NCBI GenBank assembly: GCA_029066805.1
Contig: JAIEFT010000040.1
Span: 40,628 to 104,627, forward strand
Length of the DNA stretch: 64,000 nt
Source: Clostridiales bacterium
GTDB taxonomy: Bacteria; Bacillota; Clostridia; Christensenellales; Pumilibacteraceae
Direction of reading: 5' to 3'
Part shown: positions 3,569 through 26,913 of the stretch, in pieces
Layout: each line of letters starts with the position of its first letter
Position numbering within the stretch: position 1 is the first letter of the stretch
The notes under the pieces: model-generated
Databases searched by the model: none
What the model was told of the DNA's origin: nothing
What the model saw: only the letters and a program-made list of their open reading frames with translations
Translations under genes and position numbers: made by a program

Positions 3569-3738
3569 ATGCTCCAAAGTCGTGGGTGTTTTTCATTGAT
3601 ATACCGTTAGCCGCTTTATTATGTTCGACGCGTTGTTTTACCCACTGCACCCATCTCTCGGCGATTCCAATACAGTCAACTATTATGCTCTTTTCCACAT
3701 GAAATCGATCAACTTAATTAATTGTAGTATTAAAGTTC

Positions 3739-4476
3739 TTATTCATTTTCCAAGCAGTAATATTGCTCGTCGGTTACGGCTTCGAGCCATTCATTTGACG
3801 TATTCACGCCCGGACATTCTACTGCGATATGACAAAACCAACTGTCGGCAGACGCACCGTGCCAATGCTTTACACCTGCGGGGATATAAACAACGTCGCC
3901 CGGCTTTAAGGCTTGCGCGGGTTTACCCCATTCCTGATACCATCCGTTTCCGTCGGTACATAATAAAATTTGTCCGCCGCCTTGTTCGGCTTTGTGGATA
4001 TGCCAATTATTACGGCACTTCGGCTCGAAGGTCACGTTCGCCATAAACACCGTTTCTTTGGGGTTTGTAAGCGGCTTCAAGTAAGAGTTGCCGATAAAAT
4101 ATTTTGCGTACGCAGTATTCGGCTCTCCCAGTCCGAACAGACCGCCGAACTTTCCGTCGTCCTTGTAAACCTCTTTCGCCATACGGAAGGCTGCCCAAGC
4201 ATTTGGCCATCCTGCGTAAAACGCAACGTGAGTTAAAAGCTCCGCCATTTCTGCTTTGGTTACACCGTTGGTCTTTGCGGTTTGCAAATGGTATTGAAAA
4301 GAACTGTCAATAAGCCCTTTCGATACGAGCGTAGTTACCGTAAGCATAGAGCGTGTTTTAAGAGAGAGCGCGTCGCTCGACCACACTTCACCGAATAACA
4401 CGTCGTCATTGAGCTCTGCAAATTTCGGGGCAAATCCCCCAAGCGAATCGCGTCCTGCCGTTTGTTTGACTTTCAT
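3739..4476 (-). CDS. Carboxymuconolactone decarboxylase-cupin fusion protein
   Basis: 245 residues. Residues ~1-105 are a CMD/AhpD-like helical domain (LTVTTLVSKGLIDSSFQYHL, then EMAELLTHVAFYAGWPNAW). The AhpD-type CxxC pair is absent, so peroxidase activity is unlikely. Residues ~125-240 are a cupin with metal-site histidines in NNWHIHKAEQGGGQ and GVKHWHGAS and a PGDVVYIPAG turn. Such fusions in Clostridia are usually found beside flavodoxins, aldo/keto reductases and LysR regulators, as here. The start has an AAGGAGATAT leader; the gene lies 18 bases after the LRR-flavodoxin gene, probably in one operon. A broken relative of the cupin half is at 40394. Confidence 0.88.
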   Translation of the reverse strand: MKVKQTAGRDSLGGFAPKFAELNDDVLFGEVWSSDALSLKTRSMLTVTTLVSKGLIDSSFQYHLQTAKTNGVTKAEMAELLTHVAFYAGWPNAWAAFRMAKEVYKDDGKFGGLFGLGEPNTAYAKYFIGNSYLKPLTNPKETVFMANVTFEPKCRNNWHIHKAEQGGGQILLCTDGNGWYQEWGKPAQALKPGDVVYIPAGVKHWHGASADSWFCHIAVECPGVNTSNEWLEAVTDEQYYCLENE

Positions 4477-4494
4477 AATATATCTCCTTAATTT

Positions 4495-6153: not shown

Positions 6154-6172
6154 ATAAGCCTCCTAAACTCTT

Positions 6173-6298
6173 TTACTTCTTTCCGAACGACATACATTTG
6201 CCGATAATCGCGCCTGTTTTCAAATACTGATAGGTGGGCATCTCGAATAAAACAGGTTTCAGTTTGTTGTAGTCGATTTTTCCGTCATCGCGCAGTAT
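6173..6298 (-). pseudogene. C-terminal end of the flavin reductase cut off by an in-frame TAG
   Basis: Directly after the TAG at 6299-6301 the same frame stays open for another 41 codons to TAA at 6173-6175. It encodes a typical family C-terminus (DDGKIDYNKLKPVLFEMPTY, then YLKTGAIIGKCMSFGKK). A GAG-to-TAG change at one base explains the break. Confidence 0.7.
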
Positions 6299-6715
6299 CT
6301 ATTCATTTGCATACGTATTTGCAATCGTCAAGATGAAGTTGTCAAAGCCTTTCGTTTCGTAATTGTCCTCAACAACGCACTCCATAGCGAGCGGCGACTT
6401 TGTGATGATGGGCGCACCCTTGCCGCCCACTTCAAAATCAAAAACTTTCGATTTGTCAACTTTGCTACCGCTTACGCAACCGACGTAATCGGCTTTGTCC
6501 AAGAGCATTTCGTCAACAATATTTACCGAAAGCACTTTGTTTTTTATGATACCCGCATTGATGAAATGGGGCTTTGCAAGGCTGACCATAATATGATCGT
6601 GTCCCATAATGCCCAAGTGCCCTACAAGCGTCCAAGTGGGTTTGCCGTCCGCAAACGTTCCGACTACTGCGAGCGGTGTGGGATACAGCGCCAAAACCGA
6701 ACCTAAGTTTTTCAT
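6299..6715 (-). CDS. Flavin reductase-like (flavoredoxin) domain protein, prematurely stopped
   Basis: 138 residues (MKNLGSVLALYPTPLAVVGT). It belongs to the flavin-reductase-like FMN-binding split-barrel family, with the N-terminal segment on which FMN sits (VGTFADGKPTWTLVGHLGIM) and a central SLAKPHFINAGIIKNKVLSV strand-helix unit. Relatives are ~180-190 residues; with the 41 codons after the TAG this one would be 180. It is therefore probably a fresh nonsense pseudogene, or else readthrough occurs. Ribosome binding site AAGGAG precedes the ATG. It sits in the same minus-strand redox cluster and would supply or use reduced flavin with the neighbouring flavodoxins. Confidence 0.75.
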   Translation of the reverse strand: MKNLGSVLALYPTPLAVVGTFADGKPTWTLVGHLGIMGHDHIMVSLAKPHFINAGIIKNKVLSVNIVDEMLLDKADYVGCVSGSKVDKSKVFDFEVGGKGAPIITKSPLAMECVVEDNYETKGFDNFILTIANTYANE

Positions 6716-6841
6716 ATTTATCTCCTTAATTCTTTTTGATTTCGAGGAGCAAATTTGCTTGCTTGCAAGGGCAAACTTGCGACAACGACAAATGGTATTT
6801 GTTCCGTAGCTTGCTGCGGAACGGCGTGCGTAGCGCGCCGC

Positions 6842-7069
6842 TCAGGGCTTGCCCTGAGGTTTAATACTTTTTATTTCGTGTATCAGGTAATCAATTTGCT
6901 GTATTGATTTTTCCTGTGCGTGAACGGCGTCCAATATACGGTATCTGCTTTTTTTCAAAACGTCGATTTGTCTTTCTATGTTCCCGCCGCTCGCGTTAAA
7001 CTTTTTTGCTTCGCTTTCCGTCAAGCCTATTTCCGTCAAATATTGTGTCAAACTCTCTCCGTATTGCAT
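6842..7069 (-). CDS. MerR-family C-terminal-like coiled-coil fragment
   Basis: 75 residues. The segment IERQIDVLKKSRYRILDAVH followed by EKSIQQIDYLIHEIK matches the dimerisation coiled coil of MerR-type regulators. The N-terminal winged-helix DNA-binding domain is missing. It overlaps the degraded frame at 7048-7476. An AGGTG ribosome binding site five bases before the ATG suggests it could still be translated. Most likely a remnant of the cluster's former regulator. Confidence 0.5.
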   Translation of the reverse strand: MQYGESLTQYLTEIGLTESEAKKFNASGGNIERQIDVLKKSRYRILDAVHAQEKSIQQIDYLIHEIKSIKPQGKP

Positions 7070-7476
7070 AGTTCACCTGCTAAAGATAAATCTTTTATTG
7101 CTCCTGTTTTTTTCTTCTTTCTCGATAAGAGAATGACCTTGTTTGAGTAATATTCTACCGCGCAAATCAAGCAAATCACACAAACATAGTCGAATAAAAA
7201 CTTTATTACCGATTCGCCGTACTCTAAGAATTTGAATGAGAAATGAATCCCCAAGTGCAACGACGCAAACACAAAAGTCCACATTGTCGCAAACAAATGC
7301 AGCCGTCTGCCCGTCATTATGTCGCCGTTAATATTCAACGGCGAATTAGGCGCGAGTTTTGCTATCGCCGTTTTTGTCCGCAAGCCGCAAAACAGAATAT
7401 ACACAACAAAAACGTTAAAACTATACCGACTATTTTTTATCGGTTTACTCCTTGTTAAAACCAAGTCCCGCAACAT
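7048..7476 (-). pseudogene. DUF4405-like membrane cytochrome remnant
   Basis: The frame contains a motif typical of DUF4405 proteins of Clostridia (MTGRRLHLFATMWTFVFASL, then HLGIHFSFK), including the two histidines of its membrane helices, and a further hydrophobic segment (FDYVCVICLICAVEYY). The N-terminal helices are absent or scrambled, no proper start is visible, and the 5' part overlaps the end of the upstream flavodoxin frame. In related clusters this protein lies between flavodoxin and MerR genes, so the order is preserved although the gene is decayed. Confidence 0.5.
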
Positions 7477-8037
7477 AGCTGTCTATAGCGCTTTGAGACG
7501 CACTACCCGACAGTTTTGTGCCGTTCAGCCAAGTGGCTTTGCTCGCCGAGCCGTGCAAGTTCTTTGCGCTGCTGCCTACGCCGCTGCCGCCCGAAGTGCA
7601 AAACGGAATGATCGTCTTGCCCTCAAAGTCATAGCTTTCAAGGAAGGTATATATGATCTTCGGCGCTTCCGCCCACCAAATAGGATAACCGAGAAATACT
7701 ATATCGTACTCGTCCATGTTTTCCACTCTGCCGCTGATCTCGGGACGCGCTTTGATGTCGTTTTGTTCTTTTGTCGAACGGCTGTTTCTGTCGCTGTAAT
7801 TGAGATCTGCCGAAGTGTAGGTCTGCAACGGAGTAATGCTATACAGCGTGCCGCCCGTAGAAACCGCTATTTTTTCGGCAACACTCTTTGTTGTGTTCGT
7901 GCAAGAGAAGTATGCACGTCCGTGCCCTCGGGAATTTTATCGGTAGTTCCATCGTCGTCCGTGCAACCGACAAATCCAAAGCACACACAAAGTATTATGA
8001 GAACTACCGGAAGAACCGAAATAAAGACCTTTTTCAT
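7445..8037 (-). pseudogene. Flavodoxin lipoprotein, frameshifted
   Basis: ATG at 8035-8037 behind GGAG starts a lipoprotein signal (MKKVFISVLPVVLIILCVCF then GFVGC). The frame then breaks near 7920, where AYFSCTNTTKSVAEKIA continues in another frame, so a few bases of the linker/first strand were lost. The rest (7445-7828 and upstream) encodes a normal flavodoxin_4 domain: SADLNYSDRNSRSTKEQND, GYPIWWAEAPKIIYTFLESY and TIIPFCTSGGSGVGSSAKNL. It is paralogous to the flavodoxin domain of the 4495-6153 protein, which may have replaced it. Confidence 0.7.
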
Positions 8038-8324
8038 AATGGACTCCTTTTACAAAAAATAAGTGTGCAAAAACCTTTTCGGTTCTTACACACTAATTAT
8101 ACTTGATTTGTATTGCTATGTAAAATACTTATTTTTTATCGTTTATCATAACTGATTTGCATTTTATAAATTAGGTGTGTCCCGGGACAAGCTCCAGACC
8201 CGCGCACTTCGTGCGCCTCGCCCCACAAGTGGCGCGACCACCTAATTTGTCGTCGTCGGCAGCCAAATGCTGCGCGATGCTTTGCTTTCGTACTCACATC
8301 GATGGAAAACGCAACAAAAGCAAA
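8038..8324. other. Intergenic spacer between flavodoxin remnant and LysR gene
   Basis: 287 bases. An AT-rich stretch with TATAC-like boxes near the flavodoxin start, then a GC-rich stretch around 8176-8290 with no open frame of recognisable content. No convincing RNA, repeat or operator seen. Confidence 0.4.
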
Positions 8325-9224
8325 TCAATCTGTGATTGCGCAAGCGGGAGAATTTACTCCTCGAATAAAATCTATGAACTTTAACACGCAACCCGATACG
8401 ATTTGGTTTTTCTTCCATACAAGCACGCTTGTTTGTTCTATTTTCGGATAGAGCGGACGGAAGTTTAAGTCGGGATGATTATAAAGCTGTGTAGCCCCGT
8501 CTAACGTTACGGCACAACCCATTCCTTTGGATACAAACATGGCGGCATTGTACAAAAGGTTTACGGTAAGATAGATATTTTTCGGGTTATAATACTCGCC
8601 GAACCAAGACGAGAACAACGAATGATTAACGGCTCGGTTGCTCATAAATATTTTACGGTCTTTCAAGTCCTCCGCCGTAACGTATTCCTTTTTACACAAA
8701 GGGCATTTCGACGGAACAACTGCTCCCCACGTGTCTTTGACAGGCAAACGGATAAATTCGTATTTTGAAAAATCGGTAGGCTCGAGCAAAATGCCTATAT
8801 CTAGCAGGCCTTTATCGAGCTGCTCCTTCGTTCCGTCCACATTGCCCGAAATGATTTCAAAACGAACGTCGGGATATTCTTCACGGAATTCATATATCAG
8901 ATCGGCTAAATATGAGCTTGCCGCGGTTTCGCCCATGCCGATCGAGATCACGCCGCTTAAAGAAGTAAGTCCTCTTGCAAATTCCTGTTCGGTCTTTTCG
9001 GTCAAATCGATAATTTCCTGCGCCTTTTGGCGAAGATATAAACCCTCGTCCGTAAGCGTTATATTGCGTTTTCCGCGAATAAACAGTTTTGCACCGAGCT
9101 CTTCTTCGAGCTGCATAAGCTGACGGGACAAAGCCGGTTGCGAAACATGCAAAATCTCCGCAGCCTTTGTAATGTTTTGCTCCCTTGCGACAATGAGAAA
9201 GTATTTCAATACTCTGTTTTCCAT
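8325..9224 (-). CDS. LysR-family transcriptional regulator
   Basis: 299 residues, the usual LysR length. N-terminal winged helix (MENRVLKYFLIVAREQNITK then AAEILHVSQPALSRQLMQLE, residues 1-60) and linker helix, then a two-lobed effector-binding domain (~90-290, ISIGMGETAASSYLADLIYE). Start ATG behind AGGGG. It sits between the redox cluster and the aldo/keto reductase on the same strand and is the likely regulator of one or both. Its effector cannot be told from sequence. A TTATAAT-like promoter box lies near 9265-9275. Confidence 0.93.
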   Translation of the reverse strand: MENRVLKYFLIVAREQNITKAAEILHVSQPALSRQLMQLEEELGAKLFIRGKRNITLTDEGLYLRQKAQEIIDLTEKTEQEFARGLTSLSGVISIGMGETAASSYLADLIYEFREEYPDVRFEIISGNVDGTKEQLDKGLLDIGILLEPTDFSKYEFIRLPVKDTWGAVVPSKCPLCKKEYVTAEDLKDRKIFMSNRAVNHSLFSSWFGEYYNPKNIYLTVNLLYNAAMFVSKGMGCAVTLDGATQLYNHPDLNFRPLYPKIEQTSVLVWKKNQIVSGCVLKFIDFIRGVNSPACAITD

Positions 9225-9361
9225 AAATACCCCTATCGTATGATACTGCCGTTATTATGCAATTTGATTATAACATAAAACCCCGTCAAAAGCAAGCTTT
9301 TGTCTTCGGCTACCGCCGACTGCGTTTTCCTGCGGCAAACGCGCTTTTTGTTGAAACACAT

Positions 9362-9391
9362 AAAAAGTGCGGAATGACAACCACTCCGCAC
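9362..9391 (-). terminator. Intrinsic terminator of the aldo/keto reductase gene
   Basis: GTGCGGA paired with TCCGCAC (9367-9391) followed on the minus strand by five T's, just after the stop codon of the 9410-10399 gene. Confidence 0.8.
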
Positions 9392-9409
9392 ATATAGATA
9401 TTAAAAATG

Positions 9410-10399
9410 TTATTTGTGATTAAACTGCATCACTCCGACGAGCTTATGGGGGACGTAAGATTCTTCCAAGTACGCTATTTCTTCCGCTGTAAGTTTAACT
9501 CCAACCGCCGCAACCGCGTCTTCTATATGCTTGACTTTGGTAGCACCTACTATAGGCGAAGCTACCTTCGTAAGCAACCACCCGAGCGCGATTTGAGTTC
9601 TTGTCAATCCCTTATTTTCGGCAAGCTCGGCAACACGCGCAATAATTATACCGTCTTGTTCTTTCGTTAAGTCGTACTTGCTTTTCGCAACGTTGTCCGT
9701 TTCAAGCCGTTTCGTGACTTCGTCTGCCGGCTTTACAAGTCTACCAGAAGCAAGCGGACTGTACGGCGTAAGCGCTATTCCGTTTTCTTCACAGCACGGG
9801 AACATTTCACGTTCTTCTTCTCTGAATAAAAGATTGTAATGCCCCTGCACCGACACGAACTTTGCAAAGCCGTTACGTTCCGCAAGAGCATTTGCTTTTT
9901 CAAGCTGCCATGCGTAACAATTCGATATTCCGATCGCCCTTGCCTTGCCTTGCTTAACTGCGGTGTTTAAGCCCTCCATAATTTCTTCTATGGGCGTGTG
10001 GTAGTCCCACATGTGGCAAATGTATAAATCAACGTAGTCCGTGCCCAATCTTCTTAAGCTATTATCAAGACAGATCGCAACGTGCTTTTGCCCGCTTATG
10101 CCGCTTGCAATTTCATCTTCCGTTCTCGGCAAGAATTTTGTTGCGATTATCGCGTTTTGTCTGGCGGTTAAATCCTTGATAATTCTACCAAGATATTCCT
10201 CGCTCGTGCCGCCCGCATAGCCCATTGCCGTATCGAAAAAATTGATACCGTTATTAAGCGCCGCTTTTATGATTTCTTTTGAACGTTCCGCGTCGAGCGT
10301 CCAAGAGTGATGCCCGAGATTCGCATCTCCAAACCCCATACACCCCAAACAAATGCGCGACACGTTCAAATCGGAATTCCCGAGCTTAATATATTCCAT
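9410..10399 (-). CDS. Aldo/keto reductase
   Basis: 329 residues, full length for the AKR superfamily. Key parts: N-terminal strand (ISRICLGCMGFGD), catalytic Asp/Tyr region FFDTAMGYAGGTSEEYLG, lysine in AIIATKFLP, histidine in DLYICHMWDYHTPIEE, NADPH-phosphate site GATKVKHIEDAVAAV. It reduces carbonyls with NAD(P)H in a (beta/alpha)8 barrel in the cytosol; the physiological substrate is not evident. Start ATG with AGGAG-like leader. Own terminator at 9362-9391. Commonly found next to LysR, cupin/CMD and flavodoxin genes in Clostridia. Confidence 0.95.
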   Translation of the reverse strand: MEYIKLGNSDLNVSRICLGCMGFGDANLGHHSWTLDAERSKEIIKAALNNGINFFDTAMGYAGGTSEEYLGRIIKDLTARQNAIIATKFLPRTEDEIASGISGQKHVAICLDNSLRRLGTDYVDLYICHMWDYHTPIEEIMEGLNTAVKQGKARAIGISNCYAWQLEKANALAERNGFAKFVSVQGHYNLLFREEEREMFPCCEENGIALTPYSPLASGRLVKPADEVTKRLETDNVAKSKYDLTKEQDGIIIARVAELAENKGLTRTQIALGWLLTKVASPIVGATKVKHIEDAVAAVGVKLTAEEIAYLEESYVPHKLVGVMQFNHK

Positions 10400-10508
10400 A
10401 AAATACTCCTACACTTTTCTTTCATTATACCATTTTACTGTTTCAATGTCTAATACCAATTTTATATGATTTATCATAACCTCGGCGCATTGAACAATTA
10501 TAAATAAA

Positions 10509-10562
10509 CATAAGAAAATCGGTCCAAAAGCCGCAAGACTTTTAGACCGATTGACTTGGCGG
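10509..10562 (-). repeat. 54-bp repeat: tRNA 3' end plus terminator, copy 1
   Basis: Read on the minus strand it begins CCGCCAAGTCAA, then a hairpin (CGGTCTAAAAG / CTTTTGGACCG, 8-base loop) and TTTTC. That is the layout of a tRNA CCA end followed by its terminator. The second copy at 13706-13759 has the same length with a few changes, several of them compensatory in the stem. It probably marks the far end of an island inserted at tRNA-Ser. Confidence 0.6.
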
Positions 10563-10564
10563 AG
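10555..10564. other. Candidate attachment-site half (attL) matching the tRNA-Ser 3' end
   Basis: CTTGGCGGAG here is identical to 26746-26755, which covers the CCA end and first acceptor bases of tRNA-Ser. Its neighbour on the left is a tRNA-type terminator that the tRNA itself now lacks. Confidence 0.4.
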
Positions 10565-10597
10565 TAATCGTAACCTAAAACGAATACTCGACTTATA

Positions 10598-11041
10598 TTA
10601 TTTTACGGTAAATGAAGTCCATTCAACATGGTTAAACTGCATTACGTCAGTCGCTTTTTCCATGCCTATGCTCTCGTAGAACGGCATGGCTTTGTCATTC
10701 GCGATGAGATATACTGCTATATCTTTTTCACCTCCGGCGAGCTCGTGTGCCGCTTTCATCAGCCGCCTACCTATTCCTTGCCTTGCATAATTCCTATCAA
10801 CGCCCAAATCGGTTATATAAAGCCAATAAGCGAAATCCGTTAAACCGAAAAGAACCCCGACAATTAGGTTGTCTTTACTTCTCGCAACAAGACTAATCGA
10901 TGCGTTTTTAACTAGCTTCGATATCCTTTCGTTAAATCGCTCTTGTGGATATTGCGTACCCAAATCCGTGCGTTTAAGAAAATCAATATACTCGTCCGCC
11001 GAAATAAATTCATTTTTAATAGTTATGTTATCCGAAGTCAT
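10598..11041 (-). CDS. GNAT-family N-acetyltransferase
   Basis: 147 residues, a single GNAT domain. The acetyl-CoA pyrophosphate loop is seen as DRNYARQGIGRRLMKAAHEL (Q/RxxGxG/A motif A), preceded by the strand YITDLGV and followed by YLIANDKAMPFYESIGMEKA (motif B). It transfers acetyl groups to an unknown amine. Monocistronic, with a GAGG-type leader before the ATG. It stands next to the candidate island boundary at 10.56 kb and may be the first island gene. Confidence 0.9.
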   Translation of the reverse strand: MTSDNITIKNEFISADEYIDFLKRTDLGTQYPQERFNERISKLVKNASISLVARSKDNLIVGVLFGLTDFAYWLYITDLGVDRNYARQGIGRRLMKAAHELAGGEKDIAVYLIANDKAMPFYESIGMEKATDVMQFNHVEWTSFTVK

Positions 11042-11177
11042 AATTTCCTCTAATTATAATTTAATTAAGTATATTATACTACTATCATATATATTTTGCA
11101 AGCGTTTTAACAAAAATTAAACTTTGGCACTTTTGAATGCACTTCTCGTTACCCTATCTCTCTGCGCTAACGCAAAA

Positions 11178-11198
11178 GCGCGCCCATTAGGACGCGCC
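11178..11198 (-). terminator. Terminator after the TIR-methyltransferase operon; rest of 11042-11437
   Basis: GCGCGTCC-TAAT-GGGCGCGC then TTTT on the minus strand. The remaining bases between 11042 and 11437 are AT-rich and hold no supported gene. Some short words (TGCGCTAACGC) resemble the terminator arm of the 13.2-kb leader RNA. Confidence 0.5.
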
Positions 11199-11437
11199 AT
11201 GCGTTTGTGTACGACGAAATCTCGCGTTTTCGAAGTGTGTAAGACTAAATCTATTGTGCGATTCAAACCGCCCAACCCTAATTATTTCACATTGCGTCAT
11301 GCAACGCCCCCAAAAAGTCAAATATCTTAACAAAATATATTCTTATAGACCGTTTGCCTTAGCGAAACTGTAGTAATCTAAAACGAATTTTATCACTATT
11401 TAACATAAAATATCTATGAAAAAACTCTAACGAACAG

Positions 11438-12718
11438 CTACTGTTTAATAGCAATATAGAAAAATACCCCCAAAGCAATGAAGTATTTCCCTTGTAAATA
11501 GCATTCTTTCATTTCACTATGCTTTTGCGAAACCACTTTTAAGAGATCAAACGCCTCATAATTATCAAAATATGATGCGCTATCTGCTGCCCATAATTCC
11601 GGGTTGAAATATAAGTCCCATAATTCCTCTTTGTATTGTTCATCAAAATCAATTGAGGATATTGTAGGCGATAATAATTTAATATTATTAAACCCTGCGT
11701 TTTTCAAAATTAATGGTAATTTTCTAGCCATTTTGCGATCGCCTGATTCCTTTGAATGTTCCCAAATATAAAAGCAGTCCTCAAAATATTTGGAGTGCGG
11801 ATAAGCTATATTGACGCCGTCATCCTCATCCTGAATAAAAATTGTTCCATTGGGATTCAAAAGCATATATAAATTTTTTATCAAATCATCAATTTGTCCT
11901 ATATGTAACAATACAGCGGAAATATGAATTATGTCAAATCCCATAACTCTAAACCTTTGCATTTGAAAAAAAATATCTCGAAAAAAATTACTTGATGTCA
12001 CATCACACTGAATAAAGGCATGATTATCATGCGAATGTAATTTATTAGCTTCTTCAATTGCATTTTGATTATTATCAACACCTAATAAAAAGCTGTATTT
12101 ACGGCCATCTAAACGCATAATAATATTATCGCCATTATCGCAGCCCACATCTAAAACCGAAGGATTATCATAATTTGAAAATATTTCGTCTAAATATTTT
12201 TTTGCATATTCATTAAAGAATTTATTTTGCGATTTTAAACGAATTCTTTCCGCTTCTTTTTCAGTTGAATAAGTGCTTTTACTATTCTCATCATAAGTCG
12301 GCATCAAATTTGCTTGCTCAAAAATTGCAAGCACCAAACTTTCATAATCATCAAATTTATCTTCATAAAGCCAATTAAGACTCCCTAAAAACAATTCAAT
12401 AATTTCTTGATTACTTTCATTTAATTCTTCTATCACAACTGGAATAATAGCATAATCGCTATTTTTTTTCTGTTGAGAAATCGCTCTTGCTATCTCATTT
12501 CTAACCATAAGAGAAGAAACGCTTGCATTAGATAAAAAAACAACAAAATTTTTCGAATTATTTATTCCATTATTAATTTCTTCTATGAAGTGTTGCTTAC
12601 TATCTCTAAGCTGAAACCAACATGTAGGTCCAAAAAATTTAATCGTAGAAACAATCTTTTCTACTTTATCTTTATTTGCATTAGAAAACGAAATAAAAAT
12701 ATCTCTAATATCGTCCAT
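11438..12718 (-). CDS. TIR domain fused to a class I SAM-dependent methyltransferase
   Basis: 426 residues. Residues ~5-135 form a TIR-like domain (DIFISFSNANKDKVEKIVST); the conserved helix carrying the NADase glutamate reads SSLMVRNEIARAI, so the catalytic Glu is likely present. Residues ~155-345 form a class I methyltransferase with motif I NPSVLDVGCDNGDN, motif II LGVDNNQNAIEEAN, DVT at motif III and a motif IV/post region ending in LNPNGTIFIQDEDD. The C-terminal ~80 residues are unassigned. TIR proteins in bacteria usually act in anti-phage defence by NAD consumption or signalling; a methyltransferase partner in the same chain is unusual. AT-rich. It starts 11 bases after the 12730-13188 gene, so the two are one operon. 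Confidence 0.8.
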   Translation of the reverse strand: MDDIRDIFISFSNANKDKVEKIVSTIKFFGPTCWFQLRDSKQHFIEEINNGINNSKNFVVFLSNASVSSLMVRNEIARAISQQKKNSDYAIIPVVIEELNESNQEIIELFLGSLNWLYEDKFDDYESLVLAIFEQANLMPTYDENSKSTYSTEKEAERIRLKSQNKFFNEYAKKYLDEIFSNYDNPSVLDVGCDNGDNIIMRLDGRKYSFLLGVDNNQNAIEEANKLHSHDNHAFIQCDVTSSNFFRDIFFQMQRFRVMGFDIIHISAVLLHIGQIDDLIKNLYMLLNPNGTIFIQDEDDGVNIAYPHSKYFEDCFYIWEHSKESGDRKMARKLPLILKNAGFNNIKLLSPTISSIDFDEQYKEELWDLYFNPELWAADSASYFDNYEAFDLLKVVSQKHSEMKECYLQGKYFIALGVFFYIAIKQ

Positions 12719-12729
12719 CTTTTATTCCT

Positions 12730-13188
12730 TTAAGCATAATAGTATATTATATCCTCATATGGTAATACATCATTCACAAATTCTTCGTCATATTCCATAC
12801 ATAACTCACCATATATCTTCTTAAGTTTTTCATTAGAGCCTTTCATAGCCTCTTTTACTGAAACAATCAATTCTGATAACGATTTGAACTTAACAATTTT
12901 ACCTTCCTTAACTTCCATTACGTATGGTTGGTCACAGTCTAAAATAAACGGATAAGGGAATTTTTTTGATAATTTATCAAATTTACCTATAACAAATAGC
13001 CCTGATATTGATACAATTTTTTCCGAAAAAAATCTTCCACTATCAATATAAAAGCTATGCGTTTCACTTGTGGGAGTCATCTTATCGACTTCTTTTTTTA
13101 TTGAATCACAATTATAAAAACAAAAGACGTATTCTTCGTTTTCATATGATATAGGAAAACTTTTCACTAGATGATTGGGTATTTTCAT
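12730..13188 (-). CDS. Unknown partner protein of the TIR-methyltransferase
   Basis: 152 residues from MKIPNHLVKSFPISYENEEY. I prefer ATG 13186-13188 because TATGGAG supplies a ribosome binding site nine bases upstream; the ATG at 13203 overlaps that site. Features: strand-rich N-terminal half, acidic C-terminal half (YGELCMEYDEEFVNDVLPYE), no signal or membrane segment. No family recognised. It is the first gene of the operon and lies immediately behind the leader RNA at 13205-13418. By position it may be an adaptor, sensor or inhibitor of the TIR enzyme; that is inference only. Confidence 0.65.
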   Translation of the reverse strand: MKIPNHLVKSFPISYENEEYVFCFYNCDSIKKEVDKMTPTSETHSFYIDSGRFFSEKIVSISGLFVIGKFDKLSKKFPYPFILDCDQPYVMEVKEGKIVKFKSLSELIVSVKEAMKGSNEKLKKIYGELCMEYDEEFVNDVLPYEDIIYYYA

Positions 13189-13204
13189 TTTGATTATCTC
13201 CATA

Positions 13205-13418
13205 AAATAAAAAATGCGCTAGCCAGAGCTAACGCACGAAAAACGCAAACTCCGACTGTCGCCAAACAAGTTTATATGCAGTACGGGTAATATCGTCCAC
13301 ATAAATGGATTTGCATTTTTACCAAATTCAAAATATGGACGAGACGAAAAAAGGATATACCTATTTTGTTGAAATAAAAAAGCCCGTACTCCTATTTAGG
13401 GCATATAACTTGTTTGGC
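13205..13418 (-). promoter_or_regulatory. Conserved structured leader RNA, copy B (upstream of TIR operon)
   Basis: About 214 nt on the minus strand. The 5' end (13418-13403) pairs with 13261-13277 over 16 bp with one bulge. Inside, TAGGAGTACGGGC and CCCGTACTGC can pair, and TTTGGTAAAAATGCAAAT is shared exactly with copy A. After the closing helix comes an invariant block (GACAGTCGGAGTTTGCG, then TTTTTCGTGCGTTAGC) leading into a terminator hairpin at 13215-13236 with a T-run, just before the first gene of the operon. Only structure and key words are kept between the two copies, which points to a functional RNA. Confidence 0.7.
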
Positions 13419-13424
13419 ATAATT

Positions 13425-13453
13425 AGTATAGCATAATGCAAAAGAAAAATCAA
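13425..13453 (-). promoter_or_regulatory. Promoter of leader RNA copy B
   Basis: Minus-strand TTGATT (13448-13453), 17-base spacer, TATACT (13425-13430). Six bases later the RNA's closing helix begins at 13418. Confidence 0.8.
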
Positions 13454-13705
13454 CGCTTTTAGAAAGACAAATAACAAAAGGGCATTATTATTTGTCATTC
13501 AAATCATTTACTCGAAAAGCCGTCAACAATTTCCCGTTCAAGCCCCATTCTCTTGTATATTTTCGTCTTACACACTTGAAGTGTGTGCTACACCTTAATC
13601 TCTCTTTTTGGTGGATTTGAACCACATACAAATCGACCACCGAACACATTTTTAGCGTTCAATAGTCCGCGTGATTCCGCGAATATTGGCAAAAACGCCC
13701 CAAAA

Positions 13706-13759
13706 CATAAGAAAATCGGCCTAAACGTCGCAAGACTTTTAGACCGGTTGACTTGGCGG
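13706..13759 (-). repeat. 54-bp repeat: tRNA 3' end plus terminator, copy 2
   Basis: Same element as 10509-10562, including CCGCCAAGTCAA and the CGGTCTAAA hairpin. It separates the TIR operon from the SWIM/radical SAM genes and could be the junction between two successive insertions at the same tRNA. The surrounding 13454-13827 holds no gene. A stretch near 13605-13625 resembles a T-arm (GTGGTTCAAATCCAC), but the rest of a tRNA is missing. Confidence 0.55.
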
Positions 13760-13827
13760 CACGCCATCACCCGAATTTGAACTTTTTATGTATAAAGAAC
13801 ATTTCGGGATGAACATGCCGCTTTAAA

Positions 13828-14289
13828 TCACTCGTCATCAATATCGTGATGGCGGATATAGCGGTCTAGCACCCAATCCTCGGCTGTAAACAACACGTCC
13901 AACAGTTGATCTTGAAGCTCCTTTTTGCTCAACTTGCGCACATAAGCTTCCACGCGGTCGGGCAAGCCTTCTTCCCACGCCTCATATTCGGCTTGCTCTT
14001 TATCTATTTGCGTTTTATACGTTTTAGCATCATCGGGAAATATGGCAAAATAGAGCGCTACGGCATGCTTACATACGACTCGTCTGCCATTAGCAAACGG
14101 ACAATCGCACGCAGTATTGCGTACTTTATTCAAGTTTAATGTAACATTATATATGGCATTATCCGAACCTTTGACTTTGCCCGTATATATTCCTTCTTCT
14201 ACCAGCTCATACGATAGGACTTTACCATTTTTATAGTATTCGTATCCACGCCAAGCGGAATCACTACTTGCAAGATTAACTAATCTCAT
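13828..14289 (-). CDS. SWIM zinc-finger domain protein
   Basis: 153 residues. The SWIM motif CxCx(n)CxH is visible as CDCPFANGRRVVCKHAVAL at ~58-76, following a strand-rich lead-in (GYEYYKNGKVLSYELVEEG). The C-terminal half is helical and acidic (KKELQDQLLDVLFTAEDWVL). SWIM domains bind zinc and mediate DNA or protein contacts. The stop of this gene and the next gene downstream (13706-13759 repeat) show no further member; upstream the radical SAM gene ends 19 bases before its start, suggesting one transcript. Confidence 0.85.
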   Translation of the reverse strand: MRLVNLASSDSAWRGYEYYKNGKVLSYELVEEGIYTGKVKGSDNAIYNVTLNLNKVRNTACDCPFANGRRVVCKHAVALYFAIFPDDAKTYKTQIDKEQAEYEAWEEGLPDRVEAYVRKLSKKELQDQLLDVLFTAEDWVLDRYIRHHDIDDE

Positions 14290-14308
14290 GATTACTCCTT
14301 ATCGTAAT

Positions 14309-15100
14309 TTATATCCGAACAATATATTCGTCGGGATTTTTCTCCTCCTTGGTAAGCTCAACATCCGGCGCAAGCTTGCGTAAGCAAAACTTATAATAAA
14401 CCTCTTTATTCGCCGGCCGCAAGAGCGAAACACAGTCTATAAGGTATTTCCGCCAGTCTTGCCATTTGTCCGCATCACGATAGTGATTAATTTTACCTAT
14501 CTTATAATGGTCGACACTGTTGTCTTTAAGTGTACGCTCAATAAGCTTGATGCTCTCACTTGGCTCGATTGTAGGCTCAAAGCTTGCAAAGGTTTTTATT
14601 CCTGCACCGTGCAATGCTTTTAGCGCTTCCAATCTTTCTTCCGGTCGACTTGCAAACGGCTCCCACTCCGCGCTTTTTTGTTCGTCTATGAATGTAAGCG
14701 TAGTGCCGACGGCTATACGACTGCCAAACGCTTTAAACATGTCTATATCGCGCAACATTTTATTGCCGCCCTTACTGAGAACGGCGACGGGCGCTTTGTA
14801 TGTATTAAGTAATTTCAACATTTCGCGCGTAGTTGCGCCGTTATCCGAGCTATCGCAATATACGTCACCCACAAACGACAGTAAAATTTGCTCAGTATAT
14901 ATGTTGCGCATTAAGTCGGCTTCAGCTAAGCTCAAGATATTCTTTCGCGGCGATGGCGTACCAAAATAGCTCTGCGCGCTCCGCTGTAATGTTCCGGGCG
15001 CATAGCAATACTTACAGCGATGACTGCATCCAATATAAATATTTAAGGCATATGGACTGTACTCTCGCGCCATGCCCGTAGGTCTATATATAACACTCAT
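14309..15100 (-). CDS. Radical SAM protein, SPL/Rv2578c-like
   Basis: 263 residues from MSVIYRPTGMAREYSPYALN. Radical SAM cluster motif CxxxCxxC is CSHRCKYCYAPGTLQ at about residues 25-40. The family shares the SAM/[4Fe-4S] barrel of spore photoproduct lyase and the Rv2578c-type proteins; length ~260-290 fits. An upstream ATG (15118) overlaps the -10 box, so ATG 15100 is chosen. With the promoter at 15107-15135, transcription would begin at about that ATG, making the mRNA leaderless. It is followed by the SWIM gene. Role probably in nucleic-acid or island-specific modification; unproven. Confidence 0.88.
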   Translation of the reverse strand: MSVIYRPTGMAREYSPYALNIYIGCSHRCKYCYAPGTLQRSAQSYFGTPSPRKNILSLAEADLMRNIYTEQILLSFVGDVYCDSSDNGATTREMLKLLNTYKAPVAVLSKGGNKMLRDIDMFKAFGSRIAVGTTLTFIDEQKSAEWEPFASRPEERLEALKALHGAGIKTFASFEPTIEPSESIKLIERTLKDNSVDHYKIGKINHYRDADKWQDWRKYLIDCVSLLRPANKEVYYKFCLRKLAPDVELTKEEKNPDEYIVRI

Positions 15101-15106
15101 ATAAAA

Positions 15107-15135
15107 ATTATAGCACATCGGCGCATCAAACGCAA
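15107..15135 (-). promoter_or_regulatory. Extended -10 promoter giving a leaderless radical SAM mRNA
   Basis: TTGCGT (15130-15135), 17-base spacer, TGC-TATAAT (15107-15112). Only six bases separate the -10 box from the ATG at 15098-15100. Confidence 0.65.
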
Positions 15136-15141
15136 GTTCTG

Positions 15142-15693
15142 TTATTTGTTAATTCTAAAATAACCATAATGCTTAGTGAAATTATCTCTCACTTCATAAT
15201 ATGTTACTCTGTCAATTCCATGCTTTGCCAAAAATTCATAGAAGAACTCTATCGCTCGCGCGTTAAATAACGACGGGGCTTTATTATAAAATGAACGAAA
15301 ACCGAACTCGTCCTTGGCTTCATTTTGGATTTTGGTAAATTGATTAGTAATGGCTGTATAAATAATAACTGTCCCATTGCGTATGCTTTTACTTGTCAAA
15401 ATTTTCTTGTAAATATCAAAAGATATGCCGTAGCTGTCAACATCAATGACATTAAATTTGCTCAAATCTAATGAGTCGAATATTCGGCGTGAATCAGCAA
15501 CAAGATTATTCCCCTTGTCCTTTTGTTTTTCGACCCCGAAATATCGGTCGGTGTATATGTTTTTCCATAAAACATTATTGCCGCCGAACAAATCCAATAC
15601 GTTGATTTCGGGTAAGTTGGATATTGCCTTTTTTCTTATGAATATTTTATTGCCAATGGACTTATTATCCGTTTTAGTTGGTTGTTGACTCAA
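15142..15693 (-). CDS. Trm1/DNA-methylase-like SAM-fold protein
   Basis: 183 residues. The segment INVLDLFGGNNVLWKNI is a SAM-binding motif I, followed by YFGVEKQKDKG (motif II position) and NVIDVDSYGISFDIYKKIL, which resembles the D-x-D-P-[FY]-G active-site motif of N2,N2-guanosine tRNA methyltransferases (Trm1) with Pro replaced by Ser. A phage-like short relative of that fold is likely. The C-terminal region (RAIEFFYEFLAKHGIDRVTY) is compact. Target (tRNA, DNA or none) unknown. It is on the same strand as, and 41 bases upstream of, the leaderless radical SAM gene. Confidence 0.6.
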   Translation of the reverse strand: MSQQPTKTDNKSIGNKIFIRKKAISNLPEINVLDLFGGNNVLWKNIYTDRYFGVEKQKDKGNNLVADSRRIFDSLDLSKFNVIDVDSYGISFDIYKKILTSKSIRNGTVIIYTAITNQFTKIQNEAKDEFGFRSFYNKAPSLFNARAIEFFYEFLAKHGIDRVTYYEVRDNFTKHYGYFRINK

Positions 15694-15745
15694 TTTCCAC
15701 CCCTTTTATTTGTTTCATTTTGTTGATAAGTGGCAATAGTTTATC

Positions 15746-16096
15746 ATGGAAAATGTCAATACGACAAACAAAGATATATCACCGTCTGCTGTAGCAACGC
15801 AATTCGATCCGGCTAAACATTACAACGAAGTTTTCGGTATGTTTACGGGCGAAACCGAACAAGTAACATTTGAAATAAACGCAAAGCTGCTCGACGCTAT
15901 GATAGATCGTTTCGGTGAAGATATAAAGTTTACAACAAAAGAGAACGGCAAACTTACGTTTATCGCTCAAGTTCAAATCAGCCCGCAGTTTTTCGGCTGG
16001 TGTTGTTCATTTGGGGATTTGTTAAAGATAATTGAACCAAATAATGTTATGTGCTTTATGAAACAAATTCTATCTCGAATAATATCACTATACTAG
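15746..16096 (+). pseudogene. WYL-domain regulator, C-terminal fragment
   Basis: The segment HYNEVFGMFTGETEQVTFEI through MIDRFGEDIKF and VQISPQFFGWCCSFGDLLKI is the C-terminal half of a WYL (YafY-type) transcription factor. The winged-helix domain and most of the WYL core are missing and no promoter or good ribosome binding site precedes the ATG. The last ~20 residues (MCFMKQILSRIISLY) differ from the family. This is a remnant inside the island. Confidence 0.65.
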
Positions 16097-16184
16097 TTTT
16101 TGCAAAGTATAAAAGCATATTAAATTTATGAGTAACAATTATATCAGATTGTGAAGCCATATAATATTCTCTCAAATAAAAAAT

Positions 16185-16214
16185 AAAAGCCGCGAACATG
16201 ATTCACGGCTTTTT
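16185..16214 (-). terminator. Intrinsic terminator of the giant LRR gene
   Basis: AAAAGCCGTGAATCA...GCGGCTTTT hairpin on the minus strand followed by ATTTTTTATTT, 24 bases after the stop codon at 16238. Confidence 0.85.
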
Positions 16215-16237
16215 ATGTTGGTCTTTTATAAGTTCTA

Positions 16238-19200
16238 TTAATTTTCGATTACATCACCATCATCGCAATGAACTGTATAATGGTAAAGACCTGCGTCCCA
16301 ATCAAGCTCCTTTGATATAGCGTTCCATTGCGCCTTAGTTCCCTTGAAAGTTATGCTTGTAATACTGCTACTCCAAAACGCATGGCTCTTAATACTAGTT
16401 ACACTACTAGGAATTGTGATGTTCGTTAGTCCATTACAATCATCGAAAGTGCCACTCTCAATGCTCGTTATGCCGTTCTGGAGTACGATGCTTGTAAGTC
16501 CAGAGCAACCAGAGAATGCATATTCGGCGATTGAAGTCACGCTGCTTGGAATTATTAGACTTGTAAGTCCAGTACAATTAAAGAATGCATATTCGGCGAT
16601 TGAAGTCACGCTGCCGTCATTAGGTATTATACTCGTTTTACAGCCTTTTATCATTTTTCTTGCTTCCGTTTCTATAATACAATTCCCATCACTATGATAT
16701 TTACTATTTTCATTTGATATTGTTATTTCTGAAATTTCACCACAGTCTCGAAATGCTAATCTATCAATACTTGTCACACCACTACCGATTGTTATATTTG
16801 AAAGCCCTGTACACCCAGAGAATTGATTTTCTCTAATATTCTTAAGACCGTTACCGATTATTATATTCTTAAGCCCTGTGCAATCATCAAATGCCCAAGC
16901 GGAAATATACGTCACACTATCAGGAATCACTATACTTGTAAGTCCAGTGCAGCCAGAGAATGCCCAGCTATTTATGTCCGTCACGCTTCCATCTGTAGGT
17001 ATTATACTTGTTTTACATCCTGCTATCAATGTCTTAGTTTTTGTTTCAATTAAACAATTCTTATCGCTATGATACTTACTATTTCCACTTTGTACTATTA
17101 TTTCTGAAAGTCCTATGCATTTGCGAAACGCATTGTCAATACTTGTCGCTCCAGTGCCAATTTTAACACTAGTAAGTTTAGCGCAATTATAGAATGCATT
17201 ATGACCAATACTTTTTACATTGTTTGGAATTATGATACTTGTAAGTTCAACACAATTATAGAATGCCCATTTTTCTATGCTTGTTACGCCACTACCGATT
17301 GTTATATTCTTTAGTTTAGAACAATCGTAGAATGTAAATGGAGCAATACTTGTTACGCTGTTCGGAATCGTTATATTCGTCAGCTCAGAACAACCCCAAA
17401 ACGCGCTCTGTTTAATGTTAACTATGCTATTGGGGATTGCGATACTTGTAAGCCCAGTGCAACCGGAAAACGCAGACTCGCCGATGCTTGTCACGCTTCC
17501 ATCTGTGGGAATTATACTCGTTTTACAACCAAATACCAATGTTTTGCTTTGCTTATCCACTAAACAGTTGCCTTGACTCTTATACTTGCTATTCCCACTT
17601 GATACCGTTATGCTCGTAAGACCACTGCACTTCTCGAATGCCAAAGCGGAAATACTCGTCACACTGTCGGGTATTGTGATACTTGTTAAAGCTTGACAAT
17701 TACTAAATGTATAATTGCCTATGCTCGTGCCGCTTGTTATAACAACTTTTTTTAAATTTGAGTTTGTTATATATCGTGCCGCCATTATGGGTATTGTTGC
17801 TTCTTCAATAGCGCAACCGTTGAATGCATAGTCTCCTATACTCGTCACACTATCAGGTATTGTGATGCTTATTAATCCAGTACATTCGTAGAATGCATAA
17901 GAACCGATACTCGTCATATTACCTGAAAGTATAACCCTTTGTAGCGAACTCGGTATAACTTCTCTATTAGCCCAATAAACACTTGTACTAAATATATAGC
18001 CAAAGATTGTGTTTTCAGTGCCGTCTACATTCGCACCCACGAATGGTAATGTTATGCTTTCAAGAGAATTACAACTACCGACCGCGCATATCCCGATACT
18101 CGTCACGCTGTTTGGTATCGTTATGCTTGTAAGTCTAGCACAACCATAAAACGCATAAGACCCGATTGAAGTTACGCCATCAGGAATTGTTATGTTTGTA
18201 AGATTAGCACAACCATAGAATGTATATGATTCGATTGAGTTCAATTTATTGGATATCATTATGCTTGTAATTTCAGTACAACCATAAAATGCATAAGAGC
18301 CTATTGAAGTTACGCTATTCGGGATAGTTACATTTGTAAGTCCAGCGCAACCATAAAATGCATAAGAGCCTATTGAAGTTACGCTATTCGGGATAATAAG
18401 ATTATTTATTACAGATTTACCGTTAATCACCAAGTCTTTGTTTGTTATGCCACAGCGCATAAGACTATTTAATCCATCTATTGCGCACCAATTCGCTATA
18501 TTCCCTGTATAAATTATGCGCGTAATATCATTACAACCGGAAAATGCAGACTCGCCGATATTTGTCACACTGCTGGGAATTGTTATGCTCGTAAGTGCAC
18601 GGCACCCGTAAAAAGCACTATTTTCAATACTTGTTATACTGTCGGAAATTGTTATATTATTTAGGTTAGTACAATATTCAAAAGCCCCGTAACCTATATT
18701 TGTGCCGCTTGTTATTGTTACTGTTTTTAGAGCTGAATTCCTTATATATCTTGCCGCGATTGCGGGTATAGATGCCGTTTCAATAGGGCAGTCATCGAAC
18801 GCATAATCTCCAATGCTTGTCACGCTATCTGGAATATCTATGCTCGATAAGCTACGACAATGATGGAATGCATCTTGTCCAATACTCGTCAAATTACTTG
18901 GGATTGTTATACTTGTAAGTCCATCACAATAATAGAATGCACCATATAGAATATTCCCACCCGTAATCGTTACATGTTTTAAAGATGTCGGTATATAATA
19001 ATAGCTATATGTAGTATAGCTCGTACTACTACCGTAATAGTATTGACATGTTGACTTGGCATTTACAAATTGATTTGTTCCGAATATATAACCAAACGGA
19101 TACTGATAGGTATCACGTGAGGTTTTATATGACCCACCTACAAAAGGCAGTGTAATGGTTGTAAGAGAGCGGCAACCGTTAAACGCACCTTCGTTGATTT

Positions 19201-25111: not shown

Positions 25112-25232
25112 AACAATAGACGCAAGCGCGACAATACTTGCAAACTTGCTGCTCGACTATGTGAGAAACAGCGGCAGTGCAACGGAATTAACGCCGAGTA
25201 AAGTATTCGGCAAAGGAGAACACAATGAATAA
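25029..25232 (+). CDS. Small protein overlapping the recombinase start
   Basis: 67 residues (TTG start, MKQLQQNLVSVDLSTGQTLF). AAGGAG precedes, but only two bases away, so the true start may be slightly downstream. Its stop overlaps the recombinase ATG (ATGAATAA), implying coupled translation. A small ORF in the same relation is found at 57981-58145 before the second recombinase. Function unknown; possibly a recombination directionality or accessory factor. Confidence 0.55.
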   Translation: MKQLQQNLVSVDLSTGQTLFGNIDISNETIDASATILANLLLDYVRNSGSATELTPSKVFGKGEHNE

Positions 25233-26913
25233 ACGAGCGGTTATATATGCGAGATTCAGTTCACACACGCAAACGGAACAATCTATAGAAGGACAGCTTC
25301 GGGAATGCTATGACTACGCCAAGCGACACGACTTACTTATAGTCGGAGAATACATAGACCGAGCATTGACGGGGACTACGGACAAGCGTCCGAACTTCCT
25401 GCAAATGATTGATGATAGCAAGAAAAAAACTTTCGATTACGTTCTTGTTTACCAACTCGATCGCTTTGCTCGTAATCGATATGACAGCGCGAATTATAAA
25501 GCGAAGTTAAAGAAAAACGAAGTGCGCGTACTTTCGGCAAAAGAAAACATAACTGAAGATGCAAGCGGCATTCTCATAGAGGGCGTACTCGAAAGTATGG
25601 CGGAATACTACTCTGCGGAGTTAAGTCAGAAAGTCCGTCGCGGTATTAGAGAGAGCTTGAGCAAAGGCTATTTTATTGGTGGGTATAAGCTATTCGGTTA
25701 TGACGTTGTGGACAAGCGGTGGACTATAAATCCTATTGAAGCGCCCATAGTGAAAGATATGTTCGAACGGTACAAGAACAGAGAGAAAGCTAAAAGCATA
25801 GTCAACCGCCTGAACGATATGGGCGTCCACAACAAAACCGGCGCGAAGTTTACAGTTAATTCTTTTGCCAAAATAATCCGAAACAGCAAGTATATGGGCG
25901 TGGTCATAAGCAACGGAACGACATATACAAATATCGTTCCTGCGATTGTGGACGAACAAACATTTACTGTTTGCAATAAGATAATGGATAACCAACGCCA
26001 CAAGCAAAAAGCTGTTCAAGGACACAGTGAATACATACTTAGCGGAAAACTGTTTTGCGGCAACTGCGGTACACTTATGACTGCCGAAGATGGAACGAGC
26101 CATACGGGAAAGGTGTACCACTACTACAAATGCTTTAACCGTAAACTCCACAAAGAACAATGCCAAAAGAACAATATTACCAAAGACAAACTAGAAGATT
26201 TGGTATTCGGCAAGACAGTTGAGTATTTATTACAACCGAACGTAATAGATAAACTCGCGCTCGCTGTTACCGAAAAGTTTAACGAAGGCTTGCAAAAGTC
26301 CGATACTCTTGCCCTGCTCGAAAAAGAACAAAAGCAAGTACAGAAAGCAATAGATGGTTTTCTTTCGGCGATTGCAGCGGGTATAGTTACTAAGTCCACG
26401 AAAGAGAAATTGCTTGAATTAGAACGACAAAGCTCAGAATTGGGAAGCAAGATTGCAGTAGAAAAAGCACGTCAAATACAGCCGCTTGATTATGAGCAAG
26501 TAAAGGCGTTCTTAACTTACTTTGCAAGAAAACAATACGAAAACGACGAAGAAAAGAACGAGTTTTTCAACTCGTTCATATACCGCGTGGTTTTATTTGA
26601 TGATAGCGTTTATATTTTCTACAACACTTCGCCAAATACACCAACAAAAGTTAAGTTAGACAAAAGCGACTTAACAGCATTACAAGAATACTGCAAAAAT
26701 AGAAAAAGCACTCAATTTGTTCCGCTTGGGTTCCAATTGGGTGCTCTTGGCGGAGAGAGGGGGATTCGAACCCCCGGTAGCTGTTACACTACGCACGCTT
26801 TCCAAGCGTGTGCCTTCAGCCGCTCAGCCATCTCTCCATTCTCCGCGCCCATAGCTTGTCGGGCGCGGTGGTTTTATTCTTGTTTGGTTTGTGGTCTTTC
26901 TACCACTTGTTGA
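25225..26913 (+). CDS. Large serine recombinase (integrase) reading into tRNA-Ser
   Basis: 562 residues. Catalytic resolvase domain ~1-150 with the nucleophile serine in IYARFSSHTQTEQSIEGQ (Ser 12 or 13) and VLVYQLDRFARNRYD; Recombinase domain ~165-260; zinc ribbon CGNCGTLMTAEDG...CFNRKLHKEQC ~275-315; coiled coil ~350-420. It performs site-specific insertion and excision. The last ~50 codons are antisense tRNA-Ser (RGIRTPGSCYTTHAFQACAF), so the natural end was replaced on integration or the ORF is extended by chance. This places the attachment site just beyond the gene, at the tRNA 3' end. Confidence 0.9.
   Translation: MNKRAVIYARFSSHTQTEQSIEGQLRECYDYAKRHDLLIVGEYIDRALTGTTDKRPNFLQMIDDSKKKTFDYVLVYQLDRFARNRYDSANYKAKLKKNEVRVLSAKENITEDASGILIEGVLESMAEYYSAELSQKVRRGIRESLSKGYFIGGYKLFGYDVVDKRWTINPIEAPIVKDMFERYKNREKAKSIVNRLNDMGVHNKTGAKFTVNSFAKIIRNSKYMGVVISNGTTYTNIVPAIVDEQTFTVCNKIMDNQRHKQKAVQGHSEYILSGKLFCGNCGTLMTAEDGTSHTGKVYHYYKCFNRKLHKEQCQKNNITKDKLEDLVFGKTVEYLLQPNVIDKLALAVTEKFNEGLQKSDTLALLEKEQKQVQKAIDGFLSAIAAGIVTKSTKEKLLELERQSSELGSKIAVEKARQIQPLDYEQVKAFLTYFARKQYENDEEKNEFFNSFIYRVVLFDDSVYIFYNTSPNTPTKVKLDKSDLTALQEYCKNRKSTQFVPLGFQLGALGGERGIRTPGSCYTTHAFQACAFSRSAISPFSAPIACRARWFYSCLVCGLSTTC
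26748..26837 (-). tRNA. tRNA-Ser (GGA anticodon)
   Basis: 90 bases including encoded CCA. Acceptor GGAGAGA/TCTCTCC with discriminator G; D-arm GGCTGAGCGGCTGAA; anticodon loop CTTGGAAAG giving anticodon GGA; class II variable arm; T-arm GGGGGTTCGAATCCCCC. No terminator is visible directly after it. The 3' flank is the recombinase gene, consistent with use as an integration site. Confidence 0.96.

Follow-up and report, generated by a model that had tools for sequence, protein, structure and literature searches.

Bacterial TIR effectors have been found coupled to sensors of cyclic-nucleotide, repeat, Argonaute and STAND type. In the nicotinamide adenine dinucleotide (NAD+)-cleaving enzyme (NADase) Cat1, a TIR-CARF protein associated with clustered regularly interspaced short palindromic repeats (CRISPR), and in TIR-SAVED, the TIR domain is followed by a Rossmann-type ligand-binding domain. 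TIR-SAVED and TIR-STING are effectors of the cyclic-oligonucleotide-based antiphage signalling system (CBASS), Thoeris combines the TIR protein ThsB with ThsA, and the bacterial TIR NADase AbTir is, to our knowledge, without a methyltransferase domain. In this study we describe a protein in which a TIR domain is joined to an S-adenosylmethionine (SAM)-dependent methyltransferase domain, encoded in a 64,000-nucleotide stretch of a Clostridiales bacterium (contig JAIEFT010000040.1, positions 40,628 to 104,627; hereafter the window, whose numbering we use). The fusion and its domains are:

11438..12718 (-), TIR-methyltransferase fusion protein of 426 amino acids (open reading frame call, Pfam, homologue alignment, AlphaFold2)
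12299..12718 (-), TIR domain, residues 1-140, with active-site S10, S69 and E75, and Q36 in the position of Cat1 D33
11441..12286 (-), class I SAM-methyltransferase domain, residues 145-426, with motif I LDVGCDNG, D215, D299, D300, R328 and R332

An earlier sequence-only reading of this DNA had proposed that a TIR domain is fused to an intact class I methyltransferase, and the open reading frame at 11438-12718 (-) bears this out. The Pfam model TIR_2 covers residues 7-117 (69.5 bits, cut-off 28), ThsB_TIR also scores above its cut-off in the TIR domain (28 against 21.2 bits), and the C-terminal part matches several models of class I methyltransferases, the best being Methyltransf_23 on residues 171-347 (46.3 bits, cut-off 27). 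The AlphaFold2 model of the fusion is confident, with a mean predicted local distance difference test score (pLDDT) of 91.9. In structure comparison the fold of the TIR part resembles that of NADase TIR domains, and the second domain has the Rossmann fold, the glycine-rich motif I and the acidic residue after strand 2 that mark a class I SAM-methyltransferase. The motif [DNS]PP[FYW], catalytic in the DNA amino-methyltransferases of restriction-modification, is absent, as there is no PP dipeptide anywhere in the 426 residues, and the Pfam matches include no DNA-methyltransferase model. The NCBIfam scan of the window proteins gave nothing above cut-off; among sequences of the Protein Data Bank a single-sequence TIR query found no match and a profile query did.

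Among the described proteins, Cat1 shares with the fusion an N-terminal TIR domain, a Ser/Ser/Glu active site and a C-terminal ligand-binding domain, all in a single polypeptide; however, Cat1 carries a CARF domain where the fusion carries a methyltransferase, it has Asp33 where the fusion has Gln, and no CRISPR gene was found among the window neighbours scanned. The CBASS effectors TIR-SAVED and TIR-STING likewise join a TIR domain, predicted to act as NADase, to a sensor domain, but the fusion has neither SAVED nor STING and the scanned window neighbours include no CD-NTase. The ThsB_TIR match recalls Thoeris, whereas no ThsA-type gene lies beside the fusion and its TIR domain is tied to a methyltransferase; the eight window proteins in 8328-15693 gave no SIR2, SLOG or Macro match in Pfam. 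The Methanosarcina mazei methyltransferase 3mgg is a separate enzyme without TIR domain and shares the DEDDG motif only in part (GDHG). Among the open-access papers listed in our literature searches none described a fusion of TIR and methyltransferase, and the earlier statement that no TIR effector with a C-terminal methyltransferase is known holds within that scope. On pseudo-methyltransferases in defence the papers listed yielded nothing relevant. TIR-sensor fusions are already known as a kind; a methyltransferase as the second domain is, within this literature, new.

The fusion family is conserved, with copies in many gut bacteria, as judged by sequence comparison. A search of 5.8 billion proteins returned 112 homologues, and in a collection with a single genome for each species we found 28 loci: 26 fusions, one TIR-less copy (L022:9998-10843) and one copy cut by a contig end (L028), the last two not being counted as fusions. 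With 92 homologues of at least 380 amino acids and 26 loci, the window protein belongs to a family and is not a singleton. Twenty-six of the 28 loci are Bacillota-type and two are from Bacteroidota (L010, Bacteroidaceae; L022, Prevotellaceae), and other subfamilies exist in which the domain order is likewise TIR, then methyltransferase. Among genomes related to that of the window, 109/298 match the profile somewhere; among the matches listed most cover one domain only, and nearly whole-length matches occur in 12/298, the window's own genome included. Within the window's genus the window genome is the only one of 20 in which this subfamily has a match over almost its full length, and in the order of L022 three of 393 genomes match the methyltransferase profile A5 (E up to 1e-12). 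Among 51 fusions placed in a tree, the one from Bacteroidaceae groups with the window and 16 Bacillota rows in an 18-row set (support 95/91), a placement that fits horizontal transfer. These 51 were derived from 92 profile matches, reduced to 56 rows by keeping those with the methyltransferase region and dropping identical C-termini, from which a truncated window copy (L115) and four TIR-less rows were set aside; they still include near-copies (L004/L006, 99% identical, and L012/L027).

Several residues of both domains are constant among relatives. In an alignment of the window protein with the 92 longer homologues (A1; the other 20 of the 112 were dropped), W34, Q36, S69, E75, D215, D299, D300 and R328 are present in 93/93 sequences and S10, G192 and R332 in 92/93. 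E75 aligns with E74 of Cat1, an active-site residue, and S69 with Cat1 S68; the glutamate of VRNEIARA, named beforehand as the likely catalytic one, has thus found support. Among the 51 fusions E75, D299 and R328 are kept without exception (51/51 each), and D300 and R332 in 50/51. Position 215 is Asp or Glu in 47/51 and neither in L041, L060, L062 and L022:10871; in the same four motif I is also broken, with L060 retaining its first glycine. L041, L060 and L062 form a single clade with 100/100 support and L022:10871 branches elsewhere, on a long branch, and therefore the SAM site is likely to have been lost twice. All four nevertheless keep D299/D300/R328/R332 and the TIR glutamate.

A methyltransferase domain whose SAM site has decayed, and whose acceptor-side residues persist together with the TIR active site, is probably used for binding something. 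This pattern is our main reason for favouring the domain as a sensor or switch. We propose, with a probability of roughly 0.45, that the fusion is a single-protein NAD+-depleting effector whose methyltransferase domain acts as a sensor or switch that releases the TIR activity in phage infection. NAD+ cleavage by the TIR domain is predicted, and a role in phage defence is plausible. In the uninfected cell the methyltransferase domain, probably SAM-bound, would hold the TIR domains apart; infection would alter the occupant of the D299/D300/R328/R332 pocket, or the SAM state; the domain would then rearrange, so that the TIR domains might pair into a shared active site by analogy with Cat1, NAD+ would drop and growth of the infected cell would stop. 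A 152-residue product encoded upstream of the fusion, and the GNAT acetyltransferases and RimK-type ligases described next, might serve as clade-specific modulators.

The gene neighbourhoods of other members differ between loci. No neighbour is common to most of the 28 loci, and at many of them the fusion appears, by eye, solitary among chromosomal genes. Neighbouring reading frames were called with a simple overlap filter that hides some genes (the known fusions L004 and L008, for example), and 21 chosen neighbour proteins, rather than a census, were scanned with Pfam or PADLOC. On that basis, known defence genes clearly adjoin the fusion at L022 and L010 and suggestively at L004/L006 and L021. 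The Prevotellaceae locus (L022:6651-12196) holds in a row AbiLi, an AbiLii-like protein (RloB), a TIR protein, a free intact methyltransferase and a TIR-pseudo-methyltransferase; at L010 an nSTAND1-TIR protein lies 23 bp upstream of the fusion; L004 and L006, whose stretches are 97-98% identical, have, beside the first, another and divergent TIR-methyltransferase as well as a DUF2779 protein (weak Cas4-like match); and at L021 a tyrosine integrase is near. Directly upstream of the fusion in all three members of the SAM-site-less clade, L041 (the same place as L111), L060 and L062, is a related GNAT gene, 52-54% identical to the L060 copy. GNAT and TIR-methyltransferase without SAM site constitute a conserved two-gene unit there (L041/L111, L060, L062), in three families of the order. 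Another GNAT overlaps the fusion downstream at L067 and L068, and a RimK-type ATP-grasp ligase overlaps the (TIR-)methyltransferase gene at L063 and at the TIR-less L044 (L185) and L073. The genes rplM-rpsI (identified by eye) precede the fusion in three genomes, at a distance of about 0.2 kb in L023, 4.5 kb in L003 and 15 kb in the window (genes at 27926-28853).

Several observations weigh against an effector switched by its methyltransferase domain, most heavily the lack of defence neighbours at many loci, the constant SAM site of the window's clade and the tailoring-type enzymes found in other clades. The counterpart of Cat1 D33 is the invariant Q36 (93/93), and in Cat1 the D33A change is reported to have abolished growth arrest and only partly reduced NAD+ cleavage in vitro (PMC12162218). 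PADLOC gave weak matches confined to the TIR part of the fusion. The fusion had no match among 50,697 records of phages and 72,556 of plasmids, nor among viral contigs, in searches that reach relatives of this subfamily only; in one of these searches eight stretches fitted a peptide pattern, and none of them was confirmed. At many loci defence or mobile neighbours are lacking and ribosomal, tRNA-synthetase or metabolic genes adjoin, as seen by eye; the TIR-less relatives L044 and L073 accompany RimK and not defence genes. The GNAT and RimK neighbours suggest tailoring chemistry over sensing, and the near-constancy of SAM motif I and D215 in the window's clade fits a working methyltransferase as well. 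These last two points speak for an alternative in which the methyltransferase is a working tailoring enzyme, acting on the TIR product (ADP-ribose, cyclic ADP-ribose or nicotinamide) or on another small molecule, with the clade-specific GNAT (L041/L060/L062; L067, L068) and RimK (L063, L044, L073) providing further steps in other clades; the outcome would be a modified signal or a blocked NAD+ salvage. However, the clade with the conserved GNAT is the one with the degraded methyltransferase site, and no receptor or effector gene is conserved beside the window's clade. Since the solved structures nearest to the domain have very different substrates, the substrate of the fusion is not readable from its fold. 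We regard this alternative as rather unlikely.

It might also be possible that the protein has nothing to do with defence but is a regulatory or metabolic enzyme encoded on the chromosome of anaerobic gut bacteria, its TIR domain serving NAD+ turnover or signalling in normal physiology. The solitary gene at many of the 28 loci and the empty phage, plasmid and viral searches agree with this; yet the distribution is patchy (one genome of the 20 in the window's genus, the window's own), tandem or mixed copies with other TIR genes occur at L004, L006, L022 and L010, and the window copy lies in a likely cassette at a tRNA hotspot (see below), so that we hold it to be unlikely. A variant that stays within defence is a methylation-timed alarm, in which a ligand bound through D299/D300/R328/R332 would fire the TIR domain and methylation of that ligand would reset it, comparable to the ring-nuclease reset of CARF effectors. 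The clade without SAM site would then have lost the reset or keep it in a separate enzyme, for which the free intact methyltransferase beside the TIR-pseudo-methyltransferase at L022 and the GNAT at L041/L060/L062 would be candidates; we consider this variant improbable. Finally, the TIR domain could be a scaffold without NADase activity, its conserved glutamate being needed for folding or assembly. Besides the Gln in place of Cat1 D33, the residue four before the glutamate, often Trp in active TIR domains, is Met in the fusion as compared with Trp70 in Cat1; S69 and E75, however, are invariant in 93/93 and the fold agrees with that of an NADase TIR, which makes a mere scaffold very improbable.

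Around the fusion the window holds the following features:

12730..13188 (-), orphan protein of 152 amino acids, 11 bp upstream of the fusion (open reading frame call, start as in relatives)
13204..13460 (-), promoter and structured leader RNA, with an intrinsic terminator just ahead of the orphan gene; belongs to an RNA family with dispersed copies
13425..13453 (-), sigma-70-like promoter of the leader, TTGATT, 17-nucleotide spacer, TATACT; read from the sequence and conserved in alignment A6
10598..11041 (-), GNAT acetyltransferase gene within the repeat-bounded stretch (open reading frame call, Pfam)
10506..10562 (+), distal repeat resembling an attachment site (att), a hairpin plus TTGGCGG that matches the tRNA-Ser 3' end; its att role is putative
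13703..13759 (+), proximal att-like repeat, 91% identical to the distal one; its att role is putative
26748..26837 (-), tRNA-Ser(GGA), the likely integration target (tRNA search)
25225..26913 (+), large serine recombinase of a neighbouring element at the tRNA-Ser (PF00239, PF07508, phrog_95)

The gene upstream of the fusion had been taken for its partner of no known family. The latter part stands, as Pfam, NCBIfam, PADLOC and PHROG gave no family above cut-off, and the predicted fold of the protein has no convincing match. Its reading frame is open over 12730-13203 (-); because relatives begin at Met6 and a Shine-Dalgarno-like GGAG precedes Met6, the start is most likely at 13188, which gives 152 amino acids. 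The role as partner did not stand. Among the 5.8 billion proteins the orphan has only four other relatives (P0114-P0117), the gene is absent from 297 related genomes (E up to 0.001), and tblastn with all five family members found no match (E up to 0.01) at the 28 loci, of which L019 and L028 have under 300 bp of upstream sequence, or in 24 stretches with other subfamilies. A conserved linkage of the two genes was hence not recovered, and the orphan gene was rejected, in general, as a conserved component of the system. The longest contigs of P0114 and fusion P0018 (2763 bases) and those of P0116 and fusion P0017 (5704 bases) are of the same size, so an occasional linkage of these two relatives with fusions is likely; P0115 and P0117 have no such counterpart. 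We regard the gene as a rare accessory within one small clade.

A regulatory RNA ahead of these genes had also been proposed, and here the proposal was sound. The leader at 13204-13460 (-) holds a long paired element between promoter and terminator, and its fold has a z score of -6.95, with none of 200 shuffles as good. Similar DNA occurs in 37/121 related genomes, the window's own included, as a family of about 210 nucleotides with its own promoter and terminator, and its copies precede many different genes, by eye often lipoprotein-like, surface, repeat or hypothetical ones. A second copy in the window (22288-22539, minus strand) precedes a BspA-type protein of 2038 amino acids. Of 39 extracted copies 31 were aligned, the eight omitted being mostly longer or with partial BLAST matches. 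RNAalifold predicted 49 pairs on the alignment, 16 of them with pairing-preserving changes on both sides, such as columns 47/222 (C-G in 24 copies, G-C in seven); these are counts over related copies, hence not independent events, and the shuffle control given above applies to the single leader sequence. Rfam gave no match in window 10400-14000 (E up to 1), and the leader might represent a candidate new regulatory RNA family. As none was seen near the other fusion loci examined, the leader belongs to the window cassette and not to the system.

The two repeats, each 57 bp long, enclose leader RNA, orphan gene, fusion and GNAT in 3.2 kb. The earlier description of these genes as AT-rich is confirmed: G+C content is 33.3% in 10506-13759, compared with 45.1% in 1-10505, 39.4% in 13760-26747 and 47.8% in 26748-64000. 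In a same-genus genome (G004, L178) a like sequence at 3921-3967 runs into a tRNA-Ser(GGA) at 3971-4060, whose 3' end is TGGCGG on the plus strand. Because the repeat abuts tRNA-Ser there, we link the two and read the repeat as a tRNA terminator plus the tRNA 3' end. A second copy lies 1.6 kb off (L178 2275-3967), and the pair brackets a Thg1-like gene beside the tRNA-Ser; this may be a hotspot whose cargo varies. In the window the tRNA-Ser is 13 kb away, separated from the repeat-bounded stretch by the second element with its serine recombinase, an arrangement that repeated insertion at a single tRNA gene would account for. Against it, no empty site with both flanks joined was found in any of 20 same-genus genomes; G012 and G004 preserve the left flank, with the LysR gene and sequence beyond it, and G009, G006 and G013 preserve the right flank with the radical SAM gene. 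A BLAST search with the tRNA-Ser sequence found itself only, the tRNA sequence proper not being the repeat. Three findings also speak against an exclusive link to tRNA-Ser: a 23-25-bp part of the repeat recurs elsewhere in the same genome with three mismatches, G013 (L179) has a copy at some 230 bp from a tRNA-Thr, and G007 (L181) has one with no tRNA within the 2.6-kb stretch examined. The notion of a tRNA-Ser island between tRNA-type repeats therefore survives in part, in the two repeats and the like copy abutting tRNA-Ser(GGA) in G004, and is weakened by the distant tRNA and the like repeats elsewhere; the stretch from leader to GNAT is probably a tRNA-Ser island cassette. The serine recombinase reading frame (25225-26913) overruns the tRNA-Ser gene on the opposite strand. 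Between cassette and tRNA, at 14309-15693, lie a radical SAM protein (phrog_13321) and a 183-residue protein, probably a prophage remnant since homologues of the latter in G009 and G006 adjoin ParB-like and terminase small-subunit genes.

In conclusion, we characterized a conserved family of TIR-methyltransferase fusions. If its members are indeed NAD+-depleting effectors switched by their methyltransferase domain, methyl chemistry or SAM status would join the triggers of bacterial NAD+-depletion immunity, and the occurrence of intact and pseudo-enzyme members in one family would allow sensing to be set directly against catalysis.
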